DNA of 64,000 bases. Origin: Actinomycetospora succinea (GTDB lineage: Bacteria; Actinomycetota; Actinomycetes; Mycobacteriales; Pseudonocardiaceae). The position numbers and the translations under genes were made by a program. Location of the stretch: NCBI RefSeq assembly GCF_004363095.1, contig NZ_SNYO01000004.1, forward strand, positions 62,001 to 126,000, written 5' to 3'. Positions within the stretch are counted from its first letter, which is position 1; every line of letters begins with the position of its first letter. The notes under the pieces were generated by a model. The model was given only the letters and a program-made list of their open reading frames with translations. It was not told the DNA's origin and searched no databases. This document shows positions 1,119 through 18,449 of the stretch, piece after piece.

Positions 1119-1760
1119 TCAGAGGGAGCTGACCCCGACCACGAAGAAGAAGAGCCAGAAGAGGATCCAGCCGACGATCGGGATGTAGCCGAGCACCAGG
1201 CCGGCGATCGTCATCCCGTGGCCGGTGTTCTGCCCGCTGCTCGTCTCGCGCCAGGCGAGGTGCCCGCAGATGACGGCGGCGATCGACGCGACGCCGGCGG
1301 TGAAGAACCCGAGGATCCCGCACACCAGCGCCGCCACCGCCAGCCCGGACACCGCGGGACCGGTGGGGTAGGAGCTGTACGAGGCCGGCGTGTAGGGGCC
1401 CTGGGGGTACGGCGTGTACGACGCGGCCGGGTAGGCGCTGTACGGATCCTGGGCGTAGGGCTGGGCGTAGGGCTGGGCGTACTGGCCCGAGCCGTACGGG
1501 TCCTGGGGGTACGGCTGCGCGTAGGGCTGCTGCTGCTGGTGCGCGCGGTCGGCGGCGTACGGGTCGGCGTAGGGCTCGAGCGCGTAGGGGCTCGGGCCGT
1601 AGGGGTCCGAGGAGTAGGGCTCGGAGGGCTGTCCGGTCGTCTGGCCCGCGTCCGGGGACGGGGTCGATGACGACGACGGGGTCCCTCCGGGCGGGACGAA
1701 GGGCGCCGGGGTGTCGTGCCCCTCCCGGCTGTCGCGCTGCGGTTCCCACGGCGAGCTCAC
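1119..1760 (-). CDS. DUF4190-type membrane protein with Tyr/Pro/Gly-rich N-terminus
   Basis: The first two thirds is low-complexity sequence with repeated YGxDPYG and YAQPYAQ units. The C-terminus has two hydrophobic segments, SGLAVAALVCGILGFFTAGV and MTIAGLVLGYIPIVGWILFW, separated by a short polar loop with HLAWRE. That is the DUF4190 pattern, a small two-helix membrane domain of unknown function. I chose GTG 1760 because TACGAT lies six bases upstream, which suggests a leaderless transcript. An in-frame ATG at 1871, with GAGAGG ten bases upstream, would add 37 residues. Confidence 0.75.
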   Translation of the reverse strand: MSSPWEPQRDSREGHDTPAPFVPPGGTPSSSSTPSPDAGQTTGQPSEPYSSDPYGPSPYALEPYADPYAADRAHQQQQPYAQPYPQDPYGSGQYAQPYAQPYAQDPYSAYPAASYTPYPQGPYTPASYSSYPTGPAVSGLAVAALVCGILGFFTAGVASIAAVICGHLAWRETSSGQNTGHGMTIAGLVLGYIPIVGWILFWLFFFVVGVSSL

Positions 1761-1766
1761 GCCCGG

Positions 1767-1772
1767 ATCGTA
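1767..1772 (-). promoter_or_regulatory. -10 element for a leaderless DUF4190 transcript
   Basis: On the minus strand TACGAT lies six bases before GTG 1760. With no Shine-Dalgarno sequence between them, transcription would start at or next to the start codon. Confidence 0.4.
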
Positions 1773-1828
1773 GGACGACGTCCCGATCTCCGGGGTGTGC
1801 GCGACACACCCAGGGCCCGGCGGACCGG

Positions 1829-1891
1829 CCGCGAGAGGCACCGTCGGCAGGCGCCGGGTCTCGTCGATCATGCGGAAGGTGCCTCTCGCGG
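1829..1891 (-). repeat. 14-base perfect inverted repeat with a 35-base loop
   Basis: CCGCGAGAGGCACC at 1829-1842 is exactly repeated in reverse complement at 1878-1891. The pair lies just after the stop of the repeat protein at 1896 and over the ATG 1871 alternative start of the DUF4190 gene. It could act as a long-loop terminator or as a paired operator. Confidence 0.55.
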
Positions 1892-1895
1892 GGAT

Positions 1896-2300
1896 TCAGA
1901 GCGCCGGGATGACGACGTCGGCGTAGGTGTCGCCGTCGGTGTCGGCGACCGCGACCGGGCCGTCCTCGCCGTACGGGGCGCCGTCGGTGATCGCGGCGTC
2001 GCCGTAGCCGTCGGCGTCGGTGTCGAGGACGACCTCGTCGACGCGGCCGTCGTGGTCGTGGTCGGAGACCGCGTACTCGTCGACGCCGTCGTGGTCGCGG
2101 TCCGCGGAGGCGGTCTCGGCGTAGCCGTCGCCGTCGGCGTCGGTGGCCGTCGACTCGTATTGGCCGTCGTGGTCGCCGTCGAACGACGTCATGGTCGGCG
2201 CACCGGCCGGGATCTGCAGGAGGCCGCCGTCGGCGCCGTAGGTGGTGCCGTCGCCGGTGGTGTACGTGCCGGAGGTGTCAGCAGTGCCGGGGTCGCTCAT
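1896..2300 (-). CDS. Acidic Asp-rich repeat protein (EF-hand/thrombospondin-3-like repeats)
   Basis: The 134-residue protein is built from repeats of the form DxDxDGxxE/D: DGDHDGQYE, DADGDGYAE, DRDHDGVDE, DHDHDGRVDE, DTDADGYGD and DTDGDTYAD. Spaced Asp residues of this kind usually bind Ca2+ in EF-hand, dockerin or thrombospondin type 3 repeats. No signal peptide or membrane segment is visible. The start at ATG 2300 follows GAGGAG with good spacing. The gene lies 80 bases beyond the stop of the FHA-ABC transporter on the same strand, so co-transcription is possible. Function is unknown. Confidence 0.8.
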   Translation of the reverse strand: MSDPGTADTSGTYTTGDGTTYGADGGLLQIPAGAPTMTSFDGDHDGQYESTATDADGDGYAETASADRDHDGVDEYAVSDHDHDGRVDEVVLDTDADGYGDAAITDGAPYGEDGPVAVADTDGDTYADVVIPAL

Positions 2301-2380
2301 CGTGGGCTCCTCGCCGAGGGGATGACGTGGTCGACCCTCTGACGCTCGGAGCGCCGCCGAATGTTTCTGAGGAATCCCTG

Positions 2381-4795
2381 TCAGCGGCGCCGGCCGCTGC
2401 GGATCGGCTCGATGCGGCGCAGCAGCACGGCCGTAAGCAGCGCGAACAGCACGGTGAGGCCGACCAGCGCGCCGAAGTCGAGCAGCCAGGTGGCGGCGTC
2501 GTGGTCCCACAGCGGGTCGTGCTCGCGGTACGGCGTGGGCAGGCCGGGGCCGCTGGGGATGCCGATGGTCGAGGCGCCCATCGCGAAGCCCCACCGCGCC
2601 GGCACCAGCCACGACAGCTGCGCGAGGACGGGGCTCGACTGAATCTGCAGCAGGGCGCTCGAGAGGATGAACTGCAGCATCGCGAGCAGCACCAGCAGCG
2701 GCATCCCGCGGTCGGCGTTGGTGATCGCCGCGGAGACCGCGAGGCCGAGGGCCATGCTCGCCACCGTCACGCCGAGCAGGGCGACGACGATCTCCACGGC
2801 ACCCGAGCCGAGCAGCACCGCCTCGTCCGGGGCCGGGCGCCCGATCATGCCGAGCACGCCGAGCAGGACCGCCTGGACGCCGGTGATCGCGAGCAGCACC
2901 GTCAGCTTCGACGCGAGGTAGGCGCCGCGGGACAGCCCGATCGCCCGTTCCCGGCGGTAGATCTCGCGTTCCTTGACGACCTCGCGGATCGCCGCCGCCG
3001 ACCCCATCAGCGCTGCCCCGACGACGAACACGAGTAGCAGGCTGTTCGGGTTGCCCGGCGTGCCGCGGGCCTGCGCGGCCTGCGAGAGACCGGTGTCGCC
3101 GGGCAGGGCGTGGGTGAGCGCGGCGAGCAGCAGCGGCAGGGCCGCCATGAAGATCGTGTATTGGCGGTCGGCGAGCACGACCGCGAGGTAGCGCCGGCAC
3201 AGCACCGCGAACTGCGTGAGCACGGGCTGCTGGCGCGGCGCGGGCGCGGTGGCGTGGACCCCGGGCCGCCGCTGCGCGTCGGGCGCGCCGACGTAGCGGG
3301 CCCACTGCGGCGAGCGCCGGTAGCGGTCGGCCCAGTCGACGTGCTTCTCGCGGTCGAGGAGCAGGAAGAGGTCGGCGAAGTCGGTGACACCGAAGTAGGT
3401 GAGCGCTTCCTGCGGGGGCCCGAAGTAGGCGACGGTGCCGCCGGGGGCGAGGAGGAGCAGGCGGTCGCAGACGTCGAGGTTGGCGACGTTGTGGGTGACG
3501 ACGACGACGGTGCGGCCGTCGTCGGCGAGTCCGCGCAGGGTGTGCATGACTGACTTGTCGAGGCCGGGGTCGAGCCCGCTCGTGGGTTCGTCGAGGAAGA
3601 GCAGCGAGGGGCGGGTGAGGAGCTCGAGCGCGACCGAGGTGCGCTTGCGCTGGCCGCCCGACAGGCAGTCGATGCGCTGGTCGGCCTGGCCGGTGAGCCC
3701 GAGCTCGCCGATGACCTCCTCGATCCGGCGGTCACGGTCGGCGGCCGCGACGTCGGTGGGGAAGCGCAGCCGCGCCGCGTACGCCAGCGCCCGCCGGACG
3801 GTCAGCTGCGGGTGCAGGATGTCGTCCTGCGGCACGAGCCCGATGCGCTGGCGCAGCTCGTCGTAGTCGGTGTAGAGATCGCGACCCGCGTACTCGACGA
3901 CACCCTCGTCGGCGGGACGGAAACCGGTCAGCGCGCGCAGCAGCGTCGACTTCCCGGCGCCCGACGGCCCGACCACCGCCAGCAGGCTCCGGCTGCCGAG
4001 CGAGAACCCGACGCCTGAGAGCAGCGTCTTGTCGCCCTCGCGGACGACGAGGCCGTCGGCGCGGAACCCGATGTCGCCCGTGTCCACGTGTTCGACGAGC
4101 CGGTCACCGTCCAGGTGGAACAGCGCGTGCCCGATCCCGACCACCGACGCCGGACCGACCGGCGCGCGCCGGACCCGGGCGCCGTCGACGAACGTGCCGT
4201 TGGGGCTGCCGAGGTCGACGATGTCCCAGCCGCCGTCGGGCCGTCGCACGAGGTCGGCGTGGTGGCGGGAGACGAGCAGGTCGTGGACGACGACGTCGTT
4301 GTCGTCGGCGCGCCCGATCCGCACGCGGGGGGTGACGGGCTCGGGGCCGCTGCGCGGCAGGTCGGCGGTGACGGCGAGGCGGTGCACCGCCGAGAGCCGG
4401 CCCTGCGCCGACGAGCGCGCCGCCGCGGGCACGGTGACGGTCGCCCGCTCCGGACCTGGTGGGGCCGGGCGCGGGGGCACCGCGACGGCGTGCAGCTCGG
4501 GTCCGGCGGCGTCGCCGAGCCGGACCGTCACGGGACCCGACACCGTGATCTCGCGGAACGGGCGGCCGCCGGCGAAGGAGCCGTTGCGGCTGCGGTCGAC
4601 GATCTGCCAGCCGGCGGGCGTGGACCGGATCAGCAGGTGCTCGCGGGACACCCGCGGGCCGACGAGCTGGAGGTCGGACGCCTCGTCGCGCCCGACCACG
4701 AGGCTCTCACCGGGGTGCAGCGTCCGGTGCCGCCCGCCGGCGCGGATCTCCAGGGACGACGCGACGGGCGCGGCGCGCACCGGGTCGAACGCCAT
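2381..4795 (-). CDS. ABC exporter with two N-terminal FHA domains (Rv1747-like), copy 1
   Basis: The 804-residue protein fuses two FHA domains, an ABC ATPase and a membrane domain. FHA1 is near residues 30-80 (VGRDEASD, SREH, RSRNGSF) and FHA2 near 158-206 (IGRADDND, SRHH, GSPNGTF). Walker A GPSGAGKST is at 276-284, followed by the signature LSGGQRKR and Walker B LLFLDEPTSGLD. The C-terminal 280 residues hold about six membrane helices and the loop EREIYRRERAIGL. Mycobacterium tuberculosis Rv1747 has the same order and is phosphorylated by the kinase PknF. FHA domains bind phosphothreonine, so control by the nearby kinases is likely. The substrate is unknown. A second copy lies at 10433-12967. 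Confidence 0.93.
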   Translation of the reverse strand: MAFDPVRAAPVASSLEIRAGGRHRTLHPGESLVVGRDEASDLQLVGPRVSREHLLIRSTPAGWQIVDRSRNGSFAGGRPFREITVSGPVTVRLGDAAGPELHAVAVPPRPAPPGPERATVTVPAAARSSAQGRLSAVHRLAVTADLPRSGPEPVTPRVRIGRADDNDVVVHDLLVSRHHADLVRRPDGGWDIVDLGSPNGTFVDGARVRRAPVGPASVVGIGHALFHLDGDRLVEHVDTGDIGFRADGLVVREGDKTLLSGVGFSLGSRSLLAVVGPSGAGKSTLLRALTGFRPADEGVVEYAGRDLYTDYDELRQRIGLVPQDDILHPQLTVRRALAYAARLRFPTDVAAADRDRRIEEVIGELGLTGQADQRIDCLSGGQRKRTSVALELLTRPSLLFLDEPTSGLDPGLDKSVMHTLRGLADDGRTVVVVTHNVANLDVCDRLLLLAPGGTVAYFGPPQEALTYFGVTDFADLFLLLDREKHVDWADRYRRSPQWARYVGAPDAQRRPGVHATAPAPRQQPVLTQFAVLCRRYLAVVLADRQYTIFMAALPLLLAALTHALPGDTGLSQAAQARGTPGNPNSLLLVFVVGAALMGSAAAIREVVKEREIYRRERAIGLSRGAYLASKLTVLLAITGVQAVLLGVLGMIGRPAPDEAVLLGSGAVEIVVALLGVTVASMALGLAVSAAITNADRGMPLLVLLAMLQFILSSALLQIQSSPVLAQLSWLVPARWGFAMGASTIGIPSGPGLPTPYREHDPLWDHDAATWLLDFGALVGLTVLFALLTAVLLRRIEPIRSGRRR

Positions 4796-4801
4796 GCGCG
4801 C

Positions 4802-4807
4802 AACCTA
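4802..4807 (-). promoter_or_regulatory. -10 element for a leaderless FHA-ABC transcript
   Basis: On the minus strand TAGGTT sits six bases before ATG 4795 and no Shine-Dalgarno sequence is present. The transporter may therefore have its own leaderless promoter inside the 27-base gap after the upstream gene. Confidence 0.45.
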
Positions 4808-4822
4808 GTGGGTGCGTGATCC

Positions 4823-5365
4823 TCAGGGGAGCCGGATGAACGCCATCCGGCCCTGGGCGTCGACGCCGACGAGGGCGCCGCCGGCGGCGGTGTAGCGGTA
4901 CAGACCCGCGCGGCGCTGTGGCGGCTCGCGCAGCGCGGCGAGGAGCGCGTCCCGGTTGGCGGGCTGGGAGAGCAGCGGCGCGACCTGCGACCACGGCGCG
5001 GCGTTGACGGCGGTCGACGGCTGGTAGCGCTGCTGGACGGCGGGGAGGTCGCCGGTCCCGATCGCGGTGTAGAGGCCCTGCACCCCGGTGGCCACGGCCG
5101 CGGGCAGGGCGCGCCCGGCGGTGTCGGTGACGGCGGGGGTGCCGGCCGGGACGGGTGCCGGGGTGGGCGCCGGCGCGGCGGCCGCGCTCGGGGCCGGGGC
5201 GGGCTGGGCCGGGGGTGCGGCCTCCGTCGTGCCCGCGGGGGAGATCGGCGTCGTGACGAGGGTGAGGACGGCCAGGGCCGCGGCGACGAGGATCGCGACG
5301 CCGAGGGCCGCGCTCGCGATCCAGGGCCCGCGTCCGGCGCCGACGCTCGCCGCGGGCGCGCTCAT
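4823..5365 (-). CDS. Single-pass membrane protein with Ala/Pro linker and small extracellular domain
   Basis: The protein has 180 residues. A transmembrane helix at about residues 12-37 is followed by a 50-residue Ala/Pro-rich linker and a C-terminal domain of about 100 residues that I do not recognise (GVQGLYTAIGTGDLPAVQQ, ending RMAFIRLP). The topology is a short inside end and a large outside domain. It lies directly upstream of FHA-ABC copy 1, in the position relative to a transporter that the sensor-like gene at 9537-10436 mirrors for copy 2. The start at ATG 5365 is a choice; no strong ribosome site is visible. Confidence 0.75.
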   Translation of the reverse strand: MSAPAASVGAGRGPWIASAALGVAILVAAALAVLTLVTTPISPAGTTEAAPPAQPAPAPSAAAAPAPTPAPVPAGTPAVTDTAGRALPAAVATGVQGLYTAIGTGDLPAVQQRYQPSTAVNAAPWSQVAPLLSQPANRDALLAALREPPQRRAGLYRYTAAGGALVGVDAQGRMAFIRLP

Positions 5366-5551
5366 CGCCACGACGCCGTGAGGTGCTCGGCGATCCCGGT
5401 GCTGCTCATGTGCCCTCCTCGATCCGTCCCGCCGCAGTATCGGGACGATCACCCACCCGTGTTACCGCTGGTCGGGCAGTCTGCGTCACTCGGTCGTGGT
5501 TCGTACAGCCCGGGGGGACGGAGCGCAGCGGAGCTCGACCGATCGACATCG

Positions 5552-7411
5552 TCACGGCGGTGGCAGACGGGGGACGGCGACGGCGGCGAGGGCGACGGCG
5601 TCCGCGCAGAGCGCGTCGACCGGTCGGGCGCCGAGGACCGAGACCTCGAGCAGCTCGACCCGCTCACCGCCGCCGGGGACGGTCGACGAGCGCTGGGCGA
5701 CCGCGGCGTCGCACGAGCTCGCGCGCGGCGTGACCGCGGCCGCGCGCCCGGCGATCTCCGTCGTCGGCGCGAACGCCCGCCGGCGCTCGACCCCGACGTC
5801 GACCACGGCGGATCCGGTGCCCCAGCGGCACGACCAGCCGCCGACGCCGGGGGCGACACGGGTCGCGTCGAGCCCGGGCACGGCACCGAGGTCGGCGGGG
5901 GAGAGCACGGCGCAGGTGTCGACCGTCGTGAGGGCGTTCGGCGGGTCGGCGACCGGGCGACGGGGCAGCGGCGTGCTGCGCTGGAGGGCGCGCACCGTCG
6001 TGTCGGTGGCGGCGTCGGCGGTCGCGCACGCGTCGGCGCGCGAGCCCGGGGCCACCAGGGCGTCGACCGCGACCTGGACGCCCTCGGTGGTCACCACCGT
6101 GCGCGTGCACAGCCCGGGCTGCGGGGGCGGGCGCCGGACGAGCAGGCCGCCGACCCGGTCCTCCGGGCCGGCGGTCACCGTGGTCGCGACGGGCTCGAGC
6201 GTGGCCACCACGGCGACGTCGCCGCCCGGCGCGCGGACGTCGACCGTGCACGACGCCGGGCTGCCGAGGTCGGGGACCACGCGCGCGGAGCCGGCGGGGG
6301 CCAGCGCGGCCGGGTCGACGAGGGAGCACGGCTCGACGGTGCCCGGGTCGCCGATCACCGCGGGCACGACGCGGTCGCCGGGCCCGGCCGCCGGCCCCGG
6401 GTCGCGGAGCAGCGCCACGCCCGCGACCGCCGCGACGAGCACGACCACCGCCGCGACGACCCCGGCGACGACGACCGACCGGCGGCGCGGGGAGCCGGGG
6501 CCGCCGGTGCTCGGGGGCGGGCCGACCGGGCGTGGGGGTGGAGGGAGCGGCGGTGTGGGGGCACCGGGCGGCCGCGACCCGGCGCGTGCCCCACCGGATC
6601 GGCGCGGTGCGGACGGGCGCGGCGGTGCCGGGAGCAGACCCACGGGCGCGGTCGGCCGGACGGCGTCCCCGGGCGGCTCGGTCACCGGGACCGTCGTGGC
6701 CCGGCTCGGCGACCACGCGTCGGCGGCCACCGGGGTCGTGATGACCTCGGTGAGGCGGGGGCCGGCGGGCTCGTCGTCGAGCGCGCGCAGGTCGCGCACG
6801 AACGCGGCGCCGAGCTCCCCGGGCGTCCCGCCGTGCTCGTGCGCCACGCGGGCGAGGAGCCTCCCGACGTCGCCGGCGTCCCCGTCGACCGGGACCGCGG
6901 CGAGGGTCGCGGCGAGCGCGCGGACGTCGTCGTCCTCGGCGGCGGGACGGTCGTCCGGGCGCCGGCCCGAGGGCGCGCCGAGCAGCCACACCCCCGCGGA
7001 CTCCCCGACGAGCACGACGTCCGCGCCGATCCGCCCGTGCACCAGGCGCGCCGCGTGCGCCGCGGCGAGCGCCTCGGCCAGGACCCGCGCGATCTCGCGC
7101 AGTCGGCGCGCCGGCACGGCACCGACGGCGCCGAGCCCCCGGGCGCCGGCGGGGACGTCGTGGACGAGCCACAGCGCCCGGTCCCGCCCGGCCGCGACGT
7201 CGCGGGCCGGCGCGAGACCGGGGTGCGGGTGCCCGTCGCCGCGCCGGACGTCGCGTGCGACGCGGGTCAGGGCACCCGTCCCCTCGCCGTCGAGGGCCAC
7301 GGCCACCACGTCGCGGTCGTCCCACTCGTCGTGCGCCGCGCGCACGGCCGCGGTGAGCGCGGCCCCGAGGCGGTAGTGGCCGCCCGAGAGCAGCTCACCG
7401 TCGTCGGTCAC
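5552..7411 (-). CDS. Pseudokinase membrane protein with two DUF3558-like extracellular domains
   Basis: The 619-residue protein begins like a Ser/Thr kinase but has lost the catalytic residues. The catalytic-loop HRD motif reads HGR at 125-127, the Asn is missing (GADVVLV), and the DFG position reads GAP near 145-147. No glycine-rich loop or VAVK lysine is recognisable. After a Pro-rich linker comes a membrane helix at about 305-330. Outside lie two DUF3558-like Cys-paired modules, EPCSLVDPAAL...ASCTVDV and DTCAVLSPADL...WSCRWG. It starts at GTG 7411, 30 bases after the stop of the kinase upstream, so the two are co-transcribed. A scaffold or phospho-sensor role is inferred. Confidence 0.8.
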   Translation of the reverse strand: MTDDGELLSGGHYRLGAALTAAVRAAHDEWDDRDVVAVALDGEGTGALTRVARDVRRGDGHPHPGLAPARDVAAGRDRALWLVHDVPAGARGLGAVGAVPARRLREIARVLAEALAAAHAARLVHGRIGADVVLVGESAGVWLLGAPSGRRPDDRPAAEDDDVRALAATLAAVPVDGDAGDVGRLLARVAHEHGGTPGELGAAFVRDLRALDDEPAGPRLTEVITTPVAADAWSPSRATTVPVTEPPGDAVRPTAPVGLLPAPPRPSAPRRSGGARAGSRPPGAPTPPLPPPPRPVGPPPSTGGPGSPRRRSVVVAGVVAAVVVLVAAVAGVALLRDPGPAAGPGDRVVPAVIGDPGTVEPCSLVDPAALAPAGSARVVPDLGSPASCTVDVRAPGGDVAVVATLEPVATTVTAGPEDRVGGLLVRRPPPQPGLCTRTVVTTEGVQVAVDALVAPGSRADACATADAATDTTVRALQRSTPLPRRPVADPPNALTTVDTCAVLSPADLGAVPGLDATRVAPGVGGWSCRWGTGSAVVDVGVERRRAFAPTTEIAGRAAAVTPRASSCDAAVAQRSSTVPGGGERVELLEVSVLGARPVDALCADAVALAAVAVPRLPPP

Positions 7412-7441
7412 GGTCGTCCGATCCGGTCCGCAGGGGCCGGG

Positions 7442-9382
7442 TCAGCCGCCGAAGGTGGACTTGGCGCGGAACTGCACGCGCTGGAACACGGCGTTCGACT
7501 GGTCGAGCGTGCTGGTGCGGATCTCCCAGCTGTAGTTCAGGCCCGAGTAGATGCCCGTGGAGTAGACGGTGCCGTCGCGCTCCGCGGTGTAGAGCGGGCC
7601 CTGCTCGACGCCGCCCGCCCGCCACACGTCGAAGTTCTCGATGCGCGGGCCGAGGTTGGCCGTGTCCTGGTACCAGGCCTGCGCCCCGGCGGCGTCGGGC
7701 CAGCGGGCGAAGATCACCCGAGCGCCGGGGGCGGCGCTGGAGAAGTCGCAGACGTAGGCCTCGGTCGGGTTCACGCCGGTGCTGGTGGTGAGCCGGTCCT
7801 GCGAGGTGGTCGGCCGGCAGGTGGACGCCGTGACGTCGGGGAAGACCTGCGCCATGGTCGCCTGGCCGGCCGGGGCGCTGGTGCCGTTGCCCCCCGGGGT
7901 GCCGCCGCCACCGGTGTTGTCCGGCGTCTGCGTCGGGGTGGTGACCGGCGGGGCGGCGGGCGTGGACGTGTTCTGGTTGAGCAGGACAACCGCGCCGACC
8001 ACGACGACCAGGAGCAGGACGGCGACGCCGGCGATGATCGCGACGACCTTGCCCTTGCCGCCCTTCGGGGGCGGCGGCTGGCCGTACCAGCCCTGCGGGC
8101 CGCTGCCGGGAGGCGGCGGGTACTGGCCGGTGCCGTAGCCCGGGCCGGTAGGGCCGTAGCCCTGCGGCGCGGTGCCGGGGTAGCCGGGCTGGCCGTAGCC
8201 CTGGGTGCCGCCGGGCTGGGTCGGTCCCCACGCGGCCGGCGCGGGCTGCGGGCCGGAGCCCTGCGGCGCGCCGAACGGCGACGGCCCCTGCGGCGCCTGC
8301 GGTGTCCAGGGCTGCGACTGCTGCGGGCCCGACGCCTGGCGCGGGCCGGGGACCTGGGTCGGGGTGGCGCTCTGCGGACCGGACGAACCCGCACCGGCGG
8401 CCGCGGCGCCCGCGACCGCGCCGGCCCCGAACGCACCGGCGCCCGCGGCGACGTTCCGGGCGGTGGCGTCGTCGGGGGAGCCGACGGGGGCGGTGCCCGA
8501 GACGCCGGGCTCGCCGCCGACCGCGCGCACGGCCGCGTCCGCGAAGTCGCCGGCGGTGGCGAAGCGCTGCGCCGGGTCCTTGGCCATCGCCTGCGCGAGC
8601 ACCGCGTCGAGCGCGGGCGGCGACCCCGGGGCGACCTCGGAGAGGCGCGGCGGGGTCTCGTTGAGGTGGTCGTACATGAGGCCCGGGCCCTCGGAGACGA
8701 ACGGCGGGCGGCCGGCGATCGCCTCGAACAGCAGGCAGCCCAGCGCGTAGACGTCGACGCGGCGGTCCATCTCGCGGCCCACGAACAGCTCGGGGGCCAT
8801 GTAGGCGAGCGTGCCGATCGCGGAGCCGGTGCCGGTGAGCGAGCTCTTGGTGTCGCCGCCCATCGCGCGGACGATGCCGAAGTCGACGAGGTACACGAAG
8901 TCGCGCCCGCGGTGCTGGGTGAGCAGGACGTTCGAGGGCTTGACGTCGCGGTGGATCAGGCCGTCGTCGTGGGCGGCGTCGAGCGCGTCGGCGGTCTGGC
9001 GGACGATCTCGACGGCGCGGCGGGGCTCGAGGCGGCCGCCGCGCTCGATCTCCTCGGCGAGGTCGACACCGGAGACCAGGCGCATGTCGATGTAGAGGCG
9101 CCCGTCGATGGTGCCGAAGTCGTGGATCGGGATGACGTGCGGCGACGACAGGCGCGCGGCGGTGCGGGACTCGCGGCGGAAGCGCTCCTGGTAGTCGCCG
9201 TCGTCGGCGAGCCCACCGTGGAGGCGCTTGACGGCGACGGTGCGCTGGCGCGACGTGTCGAACGCGCGGAACACCTCGCCCATCCCGCCGCGGCCGATGC
9301 GCTCCTCGAGGCGGTACGGACCGAACGTCTCCGCCGGCTCGCCCGACGACGGCGGCGTCTGGCCCGGGGCCTCGGTGCTCAT
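7442..9382 (-). CDS. Transmembrane Ser/Thr protein kinase (PknF/PknH class)
   Basis: The 646-residue protein has a complete Hanks-type kinase domain: glycine loop IGRGGMGEVF at 29-38, VAVKRL with Lys52, HRDVKPSN at 144-151, DFG at 167-169, and an activation loop with several Ser/Thr ahead of MAPE. A 200-residue Pro/Gly/Gln-rich linker leads to a membrane helix near residues 475-500. The extracellular C-terminal domain of about 140 residues recurs in the protein encoded at 9537-10436. The start at ATG 9382 follows AGGAGAG. It should phosphorylate Thr/Ser on targets such as the flanking FHA-ABC transporters; this is inferred from PknF-Rv1747. Confidence 0.95.
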   Translation of the reverse strand: MSTEAPGQTPPSSGEPAETFGPYRLEERIGRGGMGEVFRAFDTSRQRTVAVKRLHGGLADDGDYQERFRRESRTAARLSSPHVIPIHDFGTIDGRLYIDMRLVSGVDLAEEIERGGRLEPRRAVEIVRQTADALDAAHDDGLIHRDVKPSNVLLTQHRGRDFVYLVDFGIVRAMGGDTKSSLTGTGSAIGTLAYMAPELFVGREMDRRVDVYALGCLLFEAIAGRPPFVSEGPGLMYDHLNETPPRLSEVAPGSPPALDAVLAQAMAKDPAQRFATAGDFADAAVRAVGGEPGVSGTAPVGSPDDATARNVAAGAGAFGAGAVAGAAAAGAGSSGPQSATPTQVPGPRQASGPQQSQPWTPQAPQGPSPFGAPQGSGPQPAPAAWGPTQPGGTQGYGQPGYPGTAPQGYGPTGPGYGTGQYPPPPGSGPQGWYGQPPPPKGGKGKVVAIIAGVAVLLLVVVVGAVVLLNQNTSTPAAPPVTTPTQTPDNTGGGGTPGGNGTSAPAGQATMAQVFPDVTASTCRPTTSQDRLTTSTGVNPTEAYVCDFSSAAPGARVIFARWPDAAGAQAWYQDTANLGPRIENFDVWRAGGVEQGPLYTAERDGTVYSTGIYSGLNYSWEIRTSTLDQSNAVFQRVQFRAKSTFGG

Positions 9383-9488
9383 GCGGCGCTCTCCTGGATC
9401 GTGGCTCTGCGGGGGTGAACGTCGCCCCGGGTGAAAGTCACCGAGAGTATGCGCGATGGCCTCAGGGCAGGCCAGAGCCCTCACACAT

Positions 9489-9518
9489 TTCGTAGAGTTC
9501 CCTTACTCCATGTGACAA
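9489..9518 (-). promoter_or_regulatory. Sigma-70-type promoter of the kinase operon
   Basis: On the minus strand TTGTCA (9513-9518) is followed after 18 bases by TACGAA (9489-9494). The site is in the 154-base gap upstream of the kinase start at 9382. Confidence 0.5.
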
Positions 9519-9536
9519 CTCTGAGGCCCCGGACGG

Positions 9537-10436
9537 TCACCGACCGGCCGGGAGCCGGCTGCTGTCCAGCAGGTGCACGGCGGGGAACATCCGGTTCGAG
9601 TCATCCAGCGAACGGGTGACGATGTCGAACGTGTACGGCCGACCGGAGTAGGCGGCGGTGGCGTAGACGGTGCCGTCGGGCGCAGTGCGCCGGTGCAGCG
9701 GGCCCTGGCGCTGGTCGACGCCGTGGCCCCAGACCGTCATGCCGTCGAGGTTCGGACCCCAGCTGCGCTGGTCGTCGTGCCACTGCTGGGCGTCGGCGGC
9801 CGTCGACCACTCCGTGTAGTAGACGAATCCGCCGGGCACCGCCGCTCCGTAGTCGCACAGCACGACCGCGACGGGGCGTGCGCCGGTCGACGTGACGTAC
9901 TCGGCGGCACCCACGCGGTAGGGCGCGCAGCGGTCGCCGAGCGCGGTGACGTCGGGGAACGCCGCCGCGAGCGTGCCCGTCGGCACGGTGGCCGTGGGCC
10001 CGTCCGCGGCGACCGCGGACGCCGACGGGCCGGGGGCGGCGGGGTCGGGAGCGGTGGGCCAGCCGACGACGAGGAGCATCACCAGCACGCCGAGCAGCCC
10101 GACGGCCAGACCGCCGGCGGCCCAGAGGGTCAGGCTCCACGGCCGCGCGGGGGCGCCGGAGGGTGCGACAGCGGGCGCCACCGGGTGCGGGCCGGTCCCC
10201 GCGGGACGGGGACGGGGCGCCGGGCGCGGGCGGTCGACCCGGTCCTGCGGCGCCGGCCGCTGCGTGGGCACCGGGGTGGGGACGAAGGACTGGTCGACGG
10301 CGGGCTGCTCGCCGGGCTGCGCGTCCGGGACCGGGACGTAGCGCCCCGTCGCCGGGCCGGGCGAGAACACCGCGTGCTCGCCGGTGTCCGGGAGGGCGTG
10401 GGCGCCGCGGCGGCGGTCGGTCGAGGTGAGGGTCAT
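9537..10436 (-). CDS. Membrane protein sharing the kinase ectodomain, coupled to FHA-ABC copy 2
   Basis: The 299-residue protein has a cytoplasmic Pro-rich N-terminus with no kinase domain, a membrane helix at about residues 108-133, and an extracellular C-terminal domain matching the kinase at 7442-9382. Shared features in order are FPDVTA, a Cys, STG, a CD pair, W..A..AQ.W, QGPL, DGTVY.T..YSG and a Ser-Asn near the end. The start ATG 10434-10436 overlaps the transporter stop in an ATGA junction, so translation is coupled. I infer a kinase-less receptor, perhaps giving the transporter the same ligand input. Confidence 0.85.
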   Translation of the reverse strand: MTLTSTDRRRGAHALPDTGEHAVFSPGPATGRYVPVPDAQPGEQPAVDQSFVPTPVPTQRPAPQDRVDRPRPAPRPRPAGTGPHPVAPAVAPSGAPARPWSLTLWAAGGLAVGLLGVLVMLLVVGWPTAPDPAAPGPSASAVAADGPTATVPTGTLAAAFPDVTALGDRCAPYRVGAAEYVTSTGARPVAVVLCDYGAAVPGGFVYYTEWSTAADAQQWHDDQRSWGPNLDGMTVWGHGVDQRQGPLHRRTAPDGTVYATAAYSGRPYTFDIVTRSLDDSNRMFPAVHLLDSSRLPAGR

Positions 10437-12967
10437 CGTGTCCTCCCGGCTCGCGGGTCGAGGCGCCGCAGGAGCAGTGCGGTGACGACGACGAACAGCA
10501 CGGTGACGCCGGCGAGGGCGCCGAGGTCGAACAGCCACGTCCCGGCGGTGTGGTCCCACAGCGGCTCGGCCTCGGTGTAGGGCGGCGGCACCCCCGGCCC
10601 GCTGCGCACGCCGATCGTCGAGGCGCCCATCGCGAAGCCCCACCGCGCCGGCACGAACCACGACAGCTGGGCGAGGACGGGGCTGTCCTGGATCTGCAGC
10701 AGGGCGCTGGAGAGGATGAACTGCAGCATCGCGAGCAGCACGAGCAGCGGCATCCCGCGGTCGGCGTTGTCGATCCACGCCGACACCGCGAGGCCCACGG
10801 CCATGCTGGCGATCGTGATGCCGGCGATCGCGACGAGGATCTCCAGCTGCGCGTTGCCGAGCACGACCGCCTCGTCGGGGCCCGGCCGACCGATCTGGCC
10901 GAGGACGCCGAGCACGATGCCCTGCAGGCCGGTGACCAGCCCGAGGACGACGACCTTGGAGAGCAGGTAGGCGTTCCGGGCCAGGCCGATCGCCCGTTCC
11001 CGGCGGTAGATCTCGCGTTCCTTGACCAGCTCGCGGATCGAGGCGGCCGACCCCATCAGCGCCGCGCCCACCACGAACACCATGAGCAGGCTCTGCGGCG
11101 CGCCGGGCACCCCGCGCATCTGCTCGGCGAGCGAGAGCCCGGTGTCCACCGGCAGCGCGTGCGACAGCGCCGCCAGCAGCAGCGGGAGCGCGACCATGAA
11201 GATCGTGTACTGGCGGTCGGCGGCGATCACCGCGAGGTAGCGCCGGCACAGCACGGCGAACTGGGCGATCGCCGACTGCTGGCGCGGCGGCGGCGTGGTC
11301 GCGACCGGCGTGGCGGCGCGGTCGACGGGACGCGACGGCGGCGGGGTGCCGATGTAGCGCTCGCCCTGCGCGGAGTTCCGGAACCGCTCCGCCCACTCCG
11401 CCCCGGACGACCGCTCGAGCAGGAGGAAGAGGTCGGCGAAGTCGGTGACGCCGAAGTAGGTGAGGGCTTCCTGCGGGGGCCCGAAGTAGGCGACGGTGCC
11501 GCCGGGGGCGAGCAGGAGCAGCCGGTCGCAGACGTCGAGGTTGGCGACGTTGTGGGTGACCACGACGACCGTGCGCCCGTCGTCGGCGAGTCCGCGCAGG
11601 GTGTGCATGACTGACTTGTCGAGGCCGGGGTCGAGCCCGCTGGTGGGTTCGTCGAGGAAGAGCAGCGAGGGGCGGGTGAGGAGCTCGAGCGCGACCGAGG
11701 TGCGCTTGCGCTGGCCGCCCGACAGCGAGTCGATGCGCTGGTCGGCCTGGCCGACGAGGCCGAGCTCGCCGATGACCTCCTCGATGCGCCGGTCGCGCTC
11801 GGTCTCGGTGGTGTCCGACGGGAACCGCAGGCGCGCGGCGTACGCGAGGGCGCGCCGGACGGTCAGCTGCGGGTGCAGGATGTCGTCCTGCGGCACGAGC
11901 CCGATGCGCTGGCGCAGCTCGTCGTAGTCGGCGTACAGGTCGCGGTCGGCGTAGGTGACCGTGCCCTCGTCGGCGGGGCGGAAGCCGGTCAGCGCCCGCA
12001 GCAGCGTCGACTTCCCGGCGCCCGAGGGCCCGACGACCGCGAGCAGGCTGTTCTCCTCGAGGGCGAAGCCGACCCGGTCGAGCAGGGTCCGGCCCTTCGC
12101 GGTGCGCACCACGAGGTCCTGGGCGCGGAACGCGATCGCGCCGGCGTCCTCGCGCTCGACGAGCCTGTCACCGTCGAGATGGAACAGCGCGTGCCCGATC
12201 CCGACGAGCATCCCGGGGCGCAGCGGCGCGCGGCGGATGCGCCGCCCGTCGACGTAGGTGCCGTTCGGGCTGCCGAGGTCGACGAGCTCCCAGCCGCCCG
12301 CGCCGTCGGCGACCAGCTCGGCGTGGTGGCGCGAGACGAGCAGGTCGTGGACGACGACGTCGTTGTCGGTCTCGCGGCCGATGCGGATGCGGCCTGCCGC
12401 CGGGGTGGGGGCGGCTGGCGTCGGCGGGGACGGCAGGCGGTGGACCGCCGAGAGGCGTCCCTGGCGGCTCGGTCCGTCGGGGGCGGGCTCGGGCTCCGGG
12501 GCGGGCGGACGGGCCGCGCGGGGCGGACGGGCCGGACGGGCCGCCGGCGGGACGAGCGGGGCGAGCATCGGCACCGGCGGCGCGCCCGGGTCGGCGCTCA
12601 CCGCGCGCAGCGACAGCGTCACCTCGGGGCCGCCGACCCCGAGCGTGAGCGTCAGCCGGGGCGTCGCGCCGGGGGAGAGGCGCAGCTGCTGGAGGCGCTC
12701 GCCGGCGACGAACACCCCGTTCTGGCTGCGGTCGAGCAGCTCCCAGCCCGTCGGCAGCGGCCGCAGCTCGGCGTGCACCCGCGAGACCAGCGGGTGGACG
12801 ACCTGGAACCCGGCGGCCTCGTCGCGGCCGATCGTGACCGGCTGCCCGGGCGGCACCACGACGTGGCGATCACCGTGGGTGAGCTCGAGCTGCGGGGCCG
12901 TGAGCGGCCGGCCGCGCGCCGCACGTCGGCCGGCGACCGGCCGGGGCACGGGCTCCACGGGATGCAC
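10433..12967 (-). CDS. ABC exporter with two N-terminal FHA domains (Rv1747-like), copy 2
   Basis: The 844-residue paralogue of the 2381-4795 protein has the same architecture. FHA1 carries IGRDEAAG, SRVH and RSQNGVF; FHA2 carries IGRETDND, SRHH and GSPNGTY. The ATPase has GPSGAGKST, LSGGQRKR and LLFLDEPTSGLD, and about six C-terminal helices follow. The start is GTG 12967 because GGGAGGAA lies just upstream; an in-frame GTG at 13012 has its GGAGG too close. About 320 bases of the ATPase region are nearly identical to copy 1 even at silent sites, while other parts have diverged. The substrate is unknown. Confidence 0.92.
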   Translation of the reverse strand: MHPVEPVPRPVAGRRAARGRPLTAPQLELTHGDRHVVVPPGQPVTIGRDEAAGFQVVHPLVSRVHAELRPLPTGWELLDRSQNGVFVAGERLQQLRLSPGATPRLTLTLGVGGPEVTLSLRAVSADPGAPPVPMLAPLVPPAARPARPPRAARPPAPEPEPAPDGPSRQGRLSAVHRLPSPPTPAAPTPAAGRIRIGRETDNDVVVHDLLVSRHHAELVADGAGGWELVDLGSPNGTYVDGRRIRRAPLRPGMLVGIGHALFHLDGDRLVEREDAGAIAFRAQDLVVRTAKGRTLLDRVGFALEENSLLAVVGPSGAGKSTLLRALTGFRPADEGTVTYADRDLYADYDELRQRIGLVPQDDILHPQLTVRRALAYAARLRFPSDTTETERDRRIEEVIGELGLVGQADQRIDSLSGGQRKRTSVALELLTRPSLLFLDEPTSGLDPGLDKSVMHTLRGLADDGRTVVVVTHNVANLDVCDRLLLLAPGGTVAYFGPPQEALTYFGVTDFADLFLLLERSSGAEWAERFRNSAQGERYIGTPPPSRPVDRAATPVATTPPPRQQSAIAQFAVLCRRYLAVIAADRQYTIFMVALPLLLAALSHALPVDTGLSLAEQMRGVPGAPQSLLMVFVVGAALMGSAASIRELVKEREIYRRERAIGLARNAYLLSKVVVLGLVTGLQGIVLGVLGQIGRPGPDEAVVLGNAQLEILVAIAGITIASMAVGLAVSAWIDNADRGMPLLVLLAMLQFILSSALLQIQDSPVLAQLSWFVPARWGFAMGASTIGVRSGPGVPPPYTEAEPLWDHTAGTWLFDLGALAGVTVLFVVVTALLLRRLDPRAGRTR

Positions 12968-13080
12968 CGGGTTCCTCCCTCGCGGCCGGGCCCCGCGGCC
13001 CGGCGACGTCACCTCCCCCGGAGCGTGCGCCCGAAGTGGTGACAGTCTGTGTTCGCGAGGGGGGACTCATCCAGAGGGTT

Positions 13081-13093
13081 CGCGATAATCGCG
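13081..13093. promoter_or_regulatory. CGCGATAATCGCG palindrome upstream of FHA-ABC copy 2
   Basis: This perfect 6+1+6 palindrome lies 114 bases upstream of the transporter start in the gap before the small gene at 13143-13523. It could be a repressor site. No matching regulator is known here. Confidence 0.3.
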
Positions 13094-13142
13094 CCGATCT
13101 ATCACTCCTGGTGACCGGCGGCGGCCGACCGGGTGGCTCCGC

Positions 13143-13523
13143 TCACGCCGGACGGGGCAGCGGGGCCGTGACCGAACGACGCGCCGGGGCCTGCTCGTCG
13201 GCCGCACCGGGCAGCGGCGTGCCGAACGGCGCCGCGAACGGACGCGTCAGCGGGTCGCGGCGGGCGGTGTCGTTGTCGATGGCGTGCACGTGGCCCGTGA
13301 CCTGCACCGATCCGACCTCCGCGAGGCGGCGGTGCACCCGGTCCAGGCGGGCGCGCAGGGCCGCGGCGTCGTCGGCCTTGCGCTGGCGGGCGCGGCGGGT
13401 GTGGCGCGGGCCGACAACCGACGGCGTGCCCTCGGCGTCGGCGTCGGGGCCCTCGCCGGCGGGGGTCGCCAGGGCGAGCGCGGCGGGGCGGACGGAGCGG
13501 GTGGTGGTCGAGCGGCGGAACAT
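13143..13523 (-). CDS. Small basic hypothetical protein
   Basis: The 126-residue protein is unrecognised. It is rich in Arg and Ala and has a central charged helical stretch (RARQRKADDAAALRARLDRVHRRLAEVG) that may form a short coiled coil. The ends look disordered. There is no signal peptide or membrane helix. The start at ATG 13523 has a GAGGGA fourteen bases upstream, which is rather far. It sits between the PASTA kinase and FHA-ABC copy 2 on the same strand. Confidence 0.6.
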   Translation of the reverse strand: MFRRSTTTRSVRPAALALATPAGEGPDADAEGTPSVVGPRHTRRARQRKADDAAALRARLDRVHRRLAEVGSVQVTGHVHAIDNDTARRDPLTRPFAAPFGTPLPGAADEQAPARRSVTAPLPRPA

Positions 13524-13669
13524 CGTGGATCACGTCCCTCGGTGCGACGGGCCGTCGTGCGGTCACCCTCTGCATCGAGCGCCACGCGGCCGCTCTTGAT
13601 CGGCCGACCGGTGGACTACAGATCCGGGCCACGTCAACCGAAGGGACGCGTCACCTCCCGCGGAGATGA

Positions 13670-15598
13670 TCAGAAGAGGCCGTCGAAGAACCCGTCGTCG
13701 CCCGAGCCGTCGCCGGTGTCCCCGGTGTCGCTGCCGTCGCCGGTCCCGGACGTGCCCGCCGACCCGTCGCCGCCACCCTCGGTGGCCCCGCCCGAGCCGG
13801 AGCCGCCGTCACCCGAGCCGCTCGACGGCGCCCCCGAGGACGGTGACGAGCCCTCGCGGACGGCGGTCACGGTGACGGTGGTGCCGCGCGGGACCGCAGT
13901 GCCGACACCGGGCTGCACGGTGACGACGGTGCCGGGCGCGCCGCCGCTGTCGACCTCGCGGACCGAGACCTCCAGCCCGACGCCCTCGAGCGTGGCCTCG
14001 GCGGACGCCCGCGAGCGGCCGACGACGTCGGGCACCTGCAGCGTCGCGCGCCGCTGGCCGACGACGAGCTCGATCGCGTCGCCCGGGGGACGCAGCGAGC
14101 CGGGCACCGGGTCCTGGCCGATCACCTGGCCGACCTCGGTCGGGTCGCTGGTCTCGCGCAGGCGCGGCACGGGGGTGAGCACGAGGCCCGCGCCCTCCGC
14201 GGCGACCCGAGCGGCCTCCGGGCTGCGGCCGACGAGCAGCGGGACCTGCACGAGCCCCGGGCCGCGCCCGATCCGCAGGGTCACCGCCGACTCCTCGTCG
14301 ACGCGCTGCCCGACGTCCGGGCTCGACCCCACGACGCGGTCGACCTGGTCGGGCGGGGACGGGGTGGGCACGAGGATCGGGGCGAGGCCGGCGTCGGCGA
14401 GCGCGCGCACGGCCTCGTCGCGGCTCAGCCCCACGAGGCGGGGCACCTCGCTGTCCGACGGGCCGAGCAGCCACCACCCGCCGCCGAGCAGCACGGCGAG
14501 CACCACGCCGATCAGCGCGAGCTTGCGTCGCGGCCGCGCCGGCGCCGCCGCGGCGTGCGCGCCGGTGCGCCCGGCGTCCCCGGCCCGCCGGCTCCCGGAC
14601 CGCGCGATCTCCGGGGTCACGAGCGTCTCGACGGTGTCGCCGACGTCGTCCCGGCGCCGGCGGCGTCCCGGATCCGTCCACCGGCCGGTGTCCCAGCCCC
14701 GGCCGGTGTCGTCCCGGTCGGGCTCCCCGAGAACCGCGGGGGCGTCGGGACGCTCGCCGGCGAGCACGCGCAGCAGGTCGGCGCGCATGTCGGCGGCGGT
14801 GGGGTAGCGGTTGTCGGGGTTCTTGGCCATCGCGCGGCGCACGACGGCCTCGAGCTCGGAGGACACCACGACCCCGGGCGGCGTGAGCGTCGCGAGCAGC
14901 GGCGGGTCCTCCCGCACGTGCTGGTAGACGATCGCCACCGGGCTGTCGGCGGTGAACGGGGGCTCGCCGGTGAGCAGCTCGAAGAGCACGCAGCCCGCGG
15001 CGTAGACGTCGGCGCGGGCGTCGACCTCCTGGCCGAGCCCCTGCTCGGGCGACAGGTACTGGGCGGTGCCGATGACCATGTCGCCGGTCAGCGCCGGGCC
15101 GGTCTCGGTGAGCGCCCGGGCGATGCCGAAGTCCATCACCTTCACGACGTCGCCCGGCGTGATCATGATGTTGGCGGGCTTCACGTCGCGGTGCACGACG
15201 CCGCTGTCGTGGCTGTAGCCGAGCGCGGCGCAGACGTCGGCCATCACCGCGCAGGCGCGCTCCGGCGGCATCGGCCCGTGGACGCGCAGCAGGTCGCGCA
15301 GCGTCGACCCGCTGACGTACTCCATGACGATGAACGGCAGCCCGACGCCCTCGGCCGCCACCTCGCCGGTGTCGTAGACCGCGACGATCCCGGGGTGGTT
15401 GAGCCCGGCGACGTTCTGGGCCTCGCGCTCGAAGCGCAGCCGGAACGAGGGGTCGCGGGCGAGGTCGGAGCGCAGCACCTTGACCGCGACCTCACGACCC
15501 AGGCGCACGTCGAGCCCGGCGTGCACGTCGGCCATGCCGCCACGGCCCAGGCTCGGGCCGAGCTGGTACCGCCCGGCCACCAGCGTCGCCTGCGACAT
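13670..15598 (-). CDS. PASTA-domain Ser/Thr protein kinase (PknB type)
   Basis: The 642-residue protein has an intact kinase domain: LGRGGMADVH, Lys40 in VAVKVL, HRDVKPAN at 136-143, DFG at 156-158 and the activation loop GTAQYLSPEQ. A membrane helix (LALIGVVLAVLLGGGWWLL) precedes three PASTA repeats, beginning SDSEVPRLVGLSRDEA, LVQVPLLVGRSPEAA and TLQVPDVVGRSRASA. The last 60 residues are Gly/Ser-rich. PASTA repeats bind peptidoglycan fragments, so it likely links wall status to phosphorylation. The start at ATG 15598 follows GAGGAG. The usual pknB neighbours (pknA, pbpA, rodA, pstP) are absent, so this is an extra copy. Confidence 0.95.
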   Translation of the reverse strand: MSQATLVAGRYQLGPSLGRGGMADVHAGLDVRLGREVAVKVLRSDLARDPSFRLRFEREAQNVAGLNHPGIVAVYDTGEVAAEGVGLPFIVMEYVSGSTLRDLLRVHGPMPPERACAVMADVCAALGYSHDSGVVHRDVKPANIMITPGDVVKVMDFGIARALTETGPALTGDMVIGTAQYLSPEQGLGQEVDARADVYAAGCVLFELLTGEPPFTADSPVAIVYQHVREDPPLLATLTPPGVVVSSELEAVVRRAMAKNPDNRYPTAADMRADLLRVLAGERPDAPAVLGEPDRDDTGRGWDTGRWTDPGRRRRRDDVGDTVETLVTPEIARSGSRRAGDAGRTGAHAAAAPARPRRKLALIGVVLAVLLGGGWWLLGPSDSEVPRLVGLSRDEAVRALADAGLAPILVPTPSPPDQVDRVVGSSPDVGQRVDEESAVTLRIGRGPGLVQVPLLVGRSPEAARVAAEGAGLVLTPVPRLRETSDPTEVGQVIGQDPVPGSLRPPGDAIELVVGQRRATLQVPDVVGRSRASAEATLEGVGLEVSVREVDSGGAPGTVVTVQPGVGTAVPRGTTVTVTAVREGSSPSSGAPSSGSGDGGSGSGGATEGGGDGSAGTSGTGDGSDTGDTGDGSGDDGFFDGLF

Positions 15599-15756
15599 GC
15601 GCTCCTCGTGCCTCCGTTCACTGCTCGGTCTCGCCGGGTCCCGACGTCGGCGCCGCCCAGCATCACCCGGACGGGTCCAACGCCGCGGGAGCGGGTCGGC
15701 AACGGCGGGTCGCCGTTTCGGCGCGCGAGTTCCCCCGTTCGTCGGGGCCGATGCGG

Positions 15757-17696: not shown

Positions 17697-18449
17697 GTGG
17701 GCGCGGCGGACGACGGGGGAGCGAGGGACTCCCCGCCTGCCTCGGAGGCAGCGAGCGACGCCCTCGCTCCACCACCCGAGGAGCCGCCGCCGGCGCGCCG
17801 CGATCCCGTCCGCCGGTCGCTGGTCGCCGGGGCCGTGGTGCTCGCGGTGCTCGGAGTCGTGCTGCTCGGGTGGGCGGTCACGCACCAGTCCGGGCCGCCG
17901 CCTGCCCCGGTGTCCGCCGGCCCGCCGCCCCCGTCGTCGCTGGTCGCGGCGCCGCCTGGCCGGGAGGTCGAGGCCGCCGAGCCGCTCGGGACGTCGTCCC
18001 CGCCGGCGACGCTGCGGGTGCCCGCGATCCGGGTGGACTCGCCGGTCGACCAGGTCGGCCTCAACCCCGATCGCACCATGGAGGTGCCCGCCGAGGGGTC
18101 GCCCGGCTACGACCACGCCGCCTGGTTCCGCTACTCGGTGACCCCGGGGCTCCAGGGCCCGTCGGTGATCATCGGCCACGTCGACTCCGCGGAGGCCGGG
18201 CCGTCGGTGTTCTACGAGCTCGGGCGCCTGCGCCCCGGCGACCGCGCCGAGGTCGTGCGCGCCGACGGGGCCACGGTGACGTTCGAGGTCACCGAGGTCG
18301 CCGTCTACCCCAAGGACGCCTTCCCGACCGACCGCGTCTACGGCCCCACCGCGGGCCCCGAGCTGCGCCTGATCACCTGCGGCGGCAGCTTCGACCGCGG
18401 CGCGGGCTCGTACCGCGACAACACCGTGGTGTTCGCGCGCGAGGTCTAG
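17697..18449 (+). CDS. Class F sortase
   Basis: The 250-residue protein has a cytoplasmic acidic N-terminus, one membrane helix (LVAGAVVLAVLGVVLLGWAV) and a sortase barrel. Catalytic residues are visible: His in IIGHVDS, Cys in LITCGG, and Arg in SYRDNTVVF. Short length, the N-terminal anchor and LRVPAIRVDSPVD fit class F. It transfers surface proteins to the cell wall or processes them; the upstream lipoprotein is the obvious partner. GTG 17697 is preferred because GGAG lies five bases upstream; GTG 17676 is also in frame. The stop overlaps that of the convergent gene at 18446. Confidence 0.88.
   Translation: MGAADDGGARDSPPASEAASDALAPPPEEPPPARRDPVRRSLVAGAVVLAVLGVVLLGWAVTHQSGPPPAPVSAGPPPPSSLVAAPPGREVEAAEPLGTSSPPATLRVPAIRVDSPVDQVGLNPDRTMEVPAEGSPGYDHAAWFRYSVTPGLQGPSVIIGHVDSAEAGPSVFYELGRLRPGDRAEVVRADGATVTFEVTEVAVYPKDAFPTDRVYGPTAGPELRLITCGGSFDRGAGSYRDNTVVFAREV

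Follow-up and report, generated by a model that had tools for sequence, protein, structure and literature searches.

The Mycobacterium tuberculosis transporter Rv1747 is described as a single chain of two N-terminal FHA domains, a disordered linker, a nucleotide-binding domain (NBD) and a transmembrane domain (TMD) (PMC9312465), which is phosphorylated in vitro by the Ser/Thr kinase PknF (PMC3908365), and phosphorylation by PknF promotes condensation of the FHA-linker-FHA part, a process that is reversed by the phosphatase PstP (PMC9312465). A second precedent is the pseudokinase MviN, whose C-terminal tail is phosphorylated by PknB and recruits the FHA domain of FhaA, and MviN-like pseudokinases of the ActPs3 type have wholly lost the catalytic motifs and carry a deletion in the activation loop (PMC12599244). 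In the literature covered, Ser/Thr kinase control of FHA-ABC exporters is known from one mycobacterial pair. Here we describe a block of genes at positions 2381-12967 of a 64,000-nucleotide stretch of Actinomycetospora succinea (contig NZ_SNYO01000004.1, positions 62,001 to 126,000), which is called the window below. The block contains two exporters with an FHA2x-NBD-TMD chain and, as in the PknF-Rv1747 pair, a kinase encoded in the same block, here with all its motifs complete, together with a pseudokinase, a kinase-less receptor and a small single-pass protein. It is read here as a receptor-kinase array controlling ABC export and built on the PknF-Rv1747 plan, with a probability of about 0.45.

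A preliminary description of this DNA had placed six genes here, and the reading frames, Pfam and NCBIfam agree with these positions, all on the minus strand:

2381-4795, minus strand: ABC_A, exporter of 804 residues with the order FHA1-linker-FHA2-NBD-TMD, paralogue of ABC_B (Pfam)
4496-4747, 4118-4351 and 3365-4045, minus strand: FHA1, FHA2 and NBD of ABC_A (profile boundaries)
4823-5365, minus strand: SP1, single-pass protein whose extracellular domain is small; an alternative GTG start at 5452 is possible
5552-7411, minus strand: PSK, 619 residues, with a pseudokinase domain (6749-7402), a threonine-bearing tail, a transmembrane (TM) segment and a two-part ectodomain
6734-6757, minus strand: PSK tail motif R-x-T-[ED]-V-I-x-T, residues 219-226, candidate phospho-threonine/FHA site
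6641-6658, minus strand: PSK tail motif R-x-T-x-x-V, residues 252-257, candidate phospho-threonine/FHA site
7442-9382, minus strand: STK, transmembrane Ser/Thr receptor kinase of 646 residues (Pkinase), ectodomain 7457-7855
9537-10436, minus strand: REC, kinase-less single-pass receptor of 299 residues, ectodomain 9558-9971
10433-12967, minus strand: ABC_B, exporter of 844 residues with the order FHA1-linker-FHA2-NBD-TMD (Pfam)
12623-12883, 12182-12418 and 11426-12106, minus strand: FHA1, FHA2 and NBD of ABC_B (profile boundaries)

Homologues were taken from a genus sample of 18 genomes (denoted G), and individual loci are denoted L. Eight loci can be read from ABC_B to ACID, a gene downstream of ABC_A (G000, G001, G003, G004, G007, G008, G013 and G016), and two are fragmented, G012 with pieces of both exporters and G015 with ABC_A only.

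The twin exporters

Each exporter has two FHA stretches, ABC_tran and ABC2_membrane in one polypeptide (Pfam), and by eye the Walker, signature and FHA residues of both appear intact. The genome of the window gives 64 matches to ABC_A, and only the places of ABC_A and ABC_B span the FHA part through the ATPase to the membrane domain. In a tree of FHA2-NBD-TMD (21 rows) the A and B sequences form separate clades with support of 100/99 and 100/100 respectively, and together they constitute one clade (100/99), next to which stand the solo FHA-ABC genes from the rest of the genus. The preliminary description of two paralogous exporters with two FHA domains each, flanking the other genes, is borne out.

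The two paralogues have not diverged evenly. In the three genomes with both intact, A and B show an identity of 89-91% in the NBD, 73-75% in the TMD and 70-73% in FHA2, with 37-43% in FHA1 and 38-46% in the linker. FHA1 is 73-90% identical among the nine orthologue pairs listed, and a tree of FHA1 (17 rows) groups the B sequences in a clade with a long branch (100/99). Measured between profile boundaries, the linker is shorter in A (44-53 residues, 4 rows) than in B (68-106 residues, 6 rows). Gene conversion between ABC_A and ABC_B was considered and rejected, since the A-B identities between genomes are similar (FHA1 37-43%, NBD 86-90%, TMD 72-75%) and those within genomes are not clearly above them. 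As the engine is common to both and FHA1 and the linker have diverged, the two exporters would probably answer different phospho-sites.

A receptor kinase with intact motifs, a kinase-less receptor and a pseudokinase

STK matches Pkinase with an E-value of 5.9e-45 (Pfam), its catalytic motifs are intact in 10 of 10 homologues, and among the receptor-like genes STK, REC and PSK it alone has intact motifs, in agreement with its first description as a transmembrane Ser/Thr kinase. Omega values were obtained as Nei-Gojobori counts from our own script for three pairs of close genomes (G000-G008, G001-G003 and G007-G016); they are rough at this G+C and carry no significance test. For STK they are 0.03, 0.02 and 0.10 in the kinase domain and 0.42, 0.18 and 0.19 in the ectodomain.

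The ectodomain is common to STK and REC, with 37% identity in the window and two cysteines that are invariant over 22 sequences. Eight REC genes were counted for the kinase domain, those of G004 and G015 being left out as unreadable. Three of the eight (G013, G001 and G003) have an in-frame N-terminal kinase domain, which is recognised by Pfam in both genes tested (G013 and G001) and is without the catalytic Asp in all three. The domain is absent in the other five (G000, G007, G008, G012 and G016), which have a short N-terminal leader running to an R-Y-V tail motif found in 8/8 genes. The G000 leader is similar to the G013 leader (common HALPDT) and the G012 leader to those of G001 and G003 (common TLPPR), which suggests that the kinase domain has been excised at least twice. 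As STK has both a kinase domain and the ectodomain, we infer that the change was a loss and not a gain; in the REC tree the deep forks have weak support (60/62). The preliminary term "kinase-less receptor" can thus be used in a stronger sense than before, since REC has the ectodomain of STK and also kinase-bearing homologues.

Omega is lower in the REC ectodomain (0.26, 0.59 and 0.26) than in the tail (0.62, 0.82 and 0.68) in 3/3 pairs. The structural model of REC has a mean predicted local distance difference test score (pLDDT) of 84, with the ectodomain modelled confidently (block means of 87-98 over residues 81-220 of the model), and contains the TM helix. For SP1 a single pass was judged by eye; both had been described as single-pass proteins. 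The ectodomain of PknH (4esq), at rank 19 with an E-value of 0.35, was rejected as a match to the REC ectodomain, and a profile of the ectodomain sequences gave nothing meaningful in the PDB (best E-value 1.1). Kinases with the STK/REC ectodomain also stand alone in other loci of G000 and G007 (L131 9981-11744 and L132 5578-7464), with no FHA-ABC match in the DNA around them.

A profile of nine PSK sequences matches PknE in the PDB with an E-value of 2.7e-5, and of the other 25 matches at E <=5, none of which is significant singly (E >=0.44), 24 are kinases. The PSK-domain profile also matches true kinases of other loci (E 1.4e-6 to 0.005). Judged by these profiles PSK is kinase-derived, and the beta3 Lys, HRD (HGR or HGG instead) and DFG are lost in 8/8 aligned rows, so that the term pseudokinase is retained. 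By eye, the DFG region reads LGA, and the window PSK has an activation-loop deletion, with 15 residues from LGA to D-V-R-A-L compared with 40 from DFG to D-V-Y-A-L in the window STK. The omega values of the domain are 0.36, 0.36 and 0.27 against 0.66, 0.91 and 0.76 in the PSK linker, lower in 3/3 pairs, and because the motifs are lost while omega is low, the domain looks constrained though not catalytic. The two pairs that have the PSK ectodomain give 0.22 and 0.56 there.

A TM segment follows the pseudokinase domain in five of the seven PSK genes that read through. In G007 and G016 both the TM segment and the ectodomain are absent, and the pseudokinase domain with the T-[ED]-V-I tail is kept and is therefore the common part. 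In this tail R219, T221, V223, I224 and T226, as well as R252, T254 and V257, are invariant in 7/7 sequences counted (nine were aligned and two left out as too short), with a mean identity of 63% over the 56 filled linker columns. A threonine with I or V at position +3 would fit FHA recognition, and both tail motifs are candidate sites.

The PSK ectodomains had been called DUF3558-like, which did not hold. None of the nine PSK members matches DUF3558 in Pfam at E <=1 (the HMMER filters drop most matches above ~0.1), and the assignment was rejected for want of any such match. The sole Pfam match among these members at E <=1 is DUF7472, in one member with an E-value of 0.032, and in the window PSK, SP1 and REC are without a Pfam match at E <=0.1.

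Gene losses, distribution and competing explanations

An explanation that we consider unlikely is that a duplication was followed by decay, such that only the STK-exporter pair works, as in PknF-Rv1747, and the other three genes (PSK, REC and one exporter) are relics in the course of being lost. The gene losses speak for it. Only 3/8 readable loci (G000, G007 and G013) have two intact exporters. ABC_A was not found in G003 and G008 and survives as a remnant in G016 and, broken, in G001. ABC_B of G004 is reduced to the first 133 residues, and in ABC_B of G016 a frame change separates FHA1 from the remainder, which is either real or a sequencing error. Assembly collapse is in general a possible cause of a missing ABC_A, and is counted less likely because a cross-over between A and B would delete the intervening genes, which are present. 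PSK is lost in G004 and its ectodomain in G007 and G016, and the REC kinase domain is absent or without the catalytic Asp in 8/8 readable genes. The pattern of constraint given above, with omega in the pseudokinase domain and in the REC ectodomain below that of their own linker or tail in every pair, speaks against it, as do the invariant tail motifs and a REC ectodomain that is kept in 10/10 genomes with the block (module genomes).

The block extends beyond the six genes first described, as two more belong to the same conserved block:

13670-15829, minus strand: second PASTA Ser/Thr kinase (PknB paralogue), in the upstream part of the block
1896-2300, minus strand: ACID, 134-residue Asp-rich repeat protein downstream of ABC_A

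The upstream gene has Pkinase and three PASTA stretches (Pfam) and scores 532 bits to NCBIfam PknB_PASTA against a curated cut-off of 450, and is thus a PknB-type PASTA kinase. A better PknB match is located on another contig of the same genome, as is the canonical pknA-pknB-FHA cluster, and the block was for this reason rejected as being that cluster.

The ectodomains of STK and REC are found in 10/18 genus genomes, and the second PASTA kinase in the same ten with 937-1251 bits, compared with 397-579 for other PASTA kinase matches. None of these three is found in the other eight genomes, one of which (G011) is 59% complete. PSK is present in 9/10 module genomes (absent in G004), with one weak 31-bit match in the non-module genome G009. 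The exporters are more widely spread, with FHA-ABC at E <=1e-90 in 15/18 genomes; five non-module genomes (G002, G005, G009, G010 and G014) have a solo type, G005 two of them, and by tree or best match no genome has both the module and the solo type. In a family sample of 40 genomes, one per genus with the own genome included, FHA-ABC was detected at E <=1e-100 in three and the receptor ectodomain in the own genome and 0/39 other genera. A scan of named genomes, with at least 80 loci, gave FHA beside the ATPase in 34 of the 80 loci listed. Among the matches listed, at least 14 of these 34 FHA-ABC loci have a kinase domain in the flank, several contigs being short, and 0/34 passed the thresholds for PSK, the receptor ectodomain or SP1. 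With filters off and E <=1, the PSK-domain profile has weak matches in L049 and L050, both to kinases of the ordinary kind, and a few matches of the ectodomain profiles at E 0.1 to 0.9 were taken as chance. Since proximity to a kinase recurs while PSK, the ectodomain and SP1 do not, the block looks like a genus-level elaboration, and FHA-ABC near a kinase like a widespread arrangement. The open-licence literature, as far as covered, holds nothing like this block with a pseudokinase paired with an FHA-ABC exporter, which is weak evidence of absence.

The co-occurrence of all six genes, proposed in the preliminary description as a check, is therefore found in part. STK, REC and the PASTA kinase are all-or-none within the genus and PSK nearly follows them, the six-gene set breaks up in that both exporters are intact in a minority of the loci, and outside the genus the block was not seen in the family or wider samples. 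The richer signalling-export circuit that was suggested then retains a conserved block of kinase, pseudokinase, receptor and exporters and loses the conservation of the full set.

A conserved neighbourhood without a common circuit, i.e. independent envelope genes in a rarely rearranged stretch, is unlikely as well. The upstream flank of sortase and DUF4185 genes is also syntenic, in the four module loci where both matched, so that gene order alone is weak evidence for a circuit, and the stand-alone kinases with the same ectodomain in G000 and G007 agree with such independence. That the ectodomains of STK and REC and the PASTA paralogue are present together or not at all in the genomes of the genus argues against it, as does the recurrence of FHA-ABC near a kinase-domain gene elsewhere.

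The gene order, with ABC_B beside REC-STK and ABC_A beside SP1-PSK, would suit two parallel circuits in which REC-STK drives ABC_B and PSK-SP1 drives ABC_A, but this is very improbable, as PSK and SP1 are retained in 4/4 genomes with ABC_A lost or broken (G001, G003, G008 and G016, the last with a PSK without ectodomain) and G004, which has kept ABC_A but has a truncated ABC_B, is without PSK.

Several other observations weigh against an array controlling export. The ectodomain omega reaches 0.59 for REC and 0.56 for PSK in one pair, indicating that constraint is modest there. PSK is poorly modelled by AlphaFold (mean pLDDT 59), and neither this model nor that of the REC ectodomain has a fold match in the PDB at E <=1e-3. 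Clade A is unresolved in the tree of FHA1 only, and the loss of PSK in G004 and of one exporter in several species indicates that few parts are indispensable. The ten module genomes may simply be one clade and the linkage may reflect ancestry, and every step of phosphorylation, binding, sensing and transport in the array is one that we infer.

SP1 is found in 8/8 readable module loci, with omega values of 0.38, 0.20 and 0.18 in the three close pairs. ACID has 33 acidic and 2 basic residues, repeated acidic D-G motifs and no signal peptide by eye. It is found in 9/9 loci covering the downstream side, in G004 as two weak pieces, and is kept even where ABC_A is lost; it may be a calcium-binding partner or cargo. 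A small gene at 13143-13523 is matched in eight module loci, and the ATG of REC overlaps the stop of ABC_B. A scan of 1500-14000 for promoters and terminators found none, which has little weight at a G+C of 0.73-0.79 (first 16 kb). A DUF4185 gene (18446-19477) adjoins the module in the genome of the window and was not found in the 30 kb around the canonical cluster. In 6/6 non-module genomes with a DUF4185 match, this gene and the PASTA kinase that matches best, the one of the canonical cluster, are ~8 kb apart (L140 and L141). In the two genomes that were read (G005 and G006) a second kinase adjoins the PASTA kinase.

The proposed circuit and its relation to known systems

The receptor-kinase array that we propose starts from observations on the domains present, the lost catalytic motifs, the joint occurrence of the genes, the way in which they have diverged and the low omega values, and from the REC genes with and without a kinase domain. 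STK would probably sense an extracellular cue via its two-cysteine ectodomain of ~130 residues. REC would most likely pair with STK and tune it as a catalytically empty partner, the one basis for this being the ectodomain that they have in common. PSK would most likely act as a scaffold with its threonine tail phosphorylated by STK, and by analogy with the recruitment of FhaA by MviN the phosphorylated tail would bind the FHA domains of ABC_A and ABC_B, holding the exporters at the receptor. A scaffold of this kind together with phospho-reading by the exporters is the most economical arrangement because of the PknF-Rv1747 and MviN-FhaA precedents. The cargo would probably be a component of the envelope. 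A tie to the cell-wall state is suggested by the linkage of the second PASTA kinase, which may couple the block to the state of peptidoglycan.

A more specific version, to be regarded as speculative and unlikely to hold in full, is that one catalytic and two empty subunits, namely a pseudokinase scaffold and a receptor whose kinase domain has repeatedly been excised, control two exporters that answer different phospho-sites and share an engine. If true, this would be a bacterial counterpart of the eukaryotic kinase-pseudokinase receptor pairs, with the stages of kinase loss side by side in one genus. The block offers natural variants, i.e. like engines with different phospho-readers, a pseudokinase that has or lacks the membrane part and a receptor that has or lacks a kinase domain. 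With these series, what FHA1, pseudokinase scaffolds and kinase-less receptors do can be tested in organisms other than a pathogen.

Among other arrangements of FHA-ABC genes, the solo locus of five other species in the genus has an exporter ~66-68% identical to ABC_A and in 5/6 loci a kinase domain 1.7-2.2 kb away. It differs in having one exporter per locus, and the single kinase scanned (L034) has a DUF4333 ectodomain. The genomes with solo loci have no REC/STK ectodomain, no PASTA paralogue and, apart from the weak match in G009, no PSK, and SP1 is lacking in the DNA examined around these loci. In L038 a protein (11319-12353) that by eye is degenerate and FHA-like directly follows the solo FHA-ABC gene; FHA profiles did not match it. 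Mycobacterium asiaticum (L063, 137-6276) has three FHA-ABC genes in tandem, but no kinase or receptor genes of the block type were matched in 12.4 kb. Contigs of metagenome-assembled genomes of Eubacterium and Blautia (L074 and L078) have clusters in which FHA and kinase domains occur with an FHA-ABC gene, and the theme may have been elaborated independently there.

PSK is like the MviN/Rv3910-type pseudokinases (ActPs3) in its lost motifs, activation-loop deletion, threonine tail and, in most species, a TM segment after the kinase domain. It differs from them in having no visible carbohydrate-binding or MurJ part and a two-part ectodomain of its own, and in two species no TM segment. With PknF-Rv1747 the block shares two FHA domains, an NBD and a TMD in each exporter chain and a membrane Ser/Thr kinase in the block. 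Unlike that pair, it has two exporters, which differ from each other in FHA1 and linker, and in addition a pseudokinase, a receptor with the ectodomain of the kinase but no kinase domain, SP1 and a second PASTA kinase. STK is not adjacent to the exporters, as REC intervenes on the ABC_B side and PSK with SP1 on the ABC_A side.

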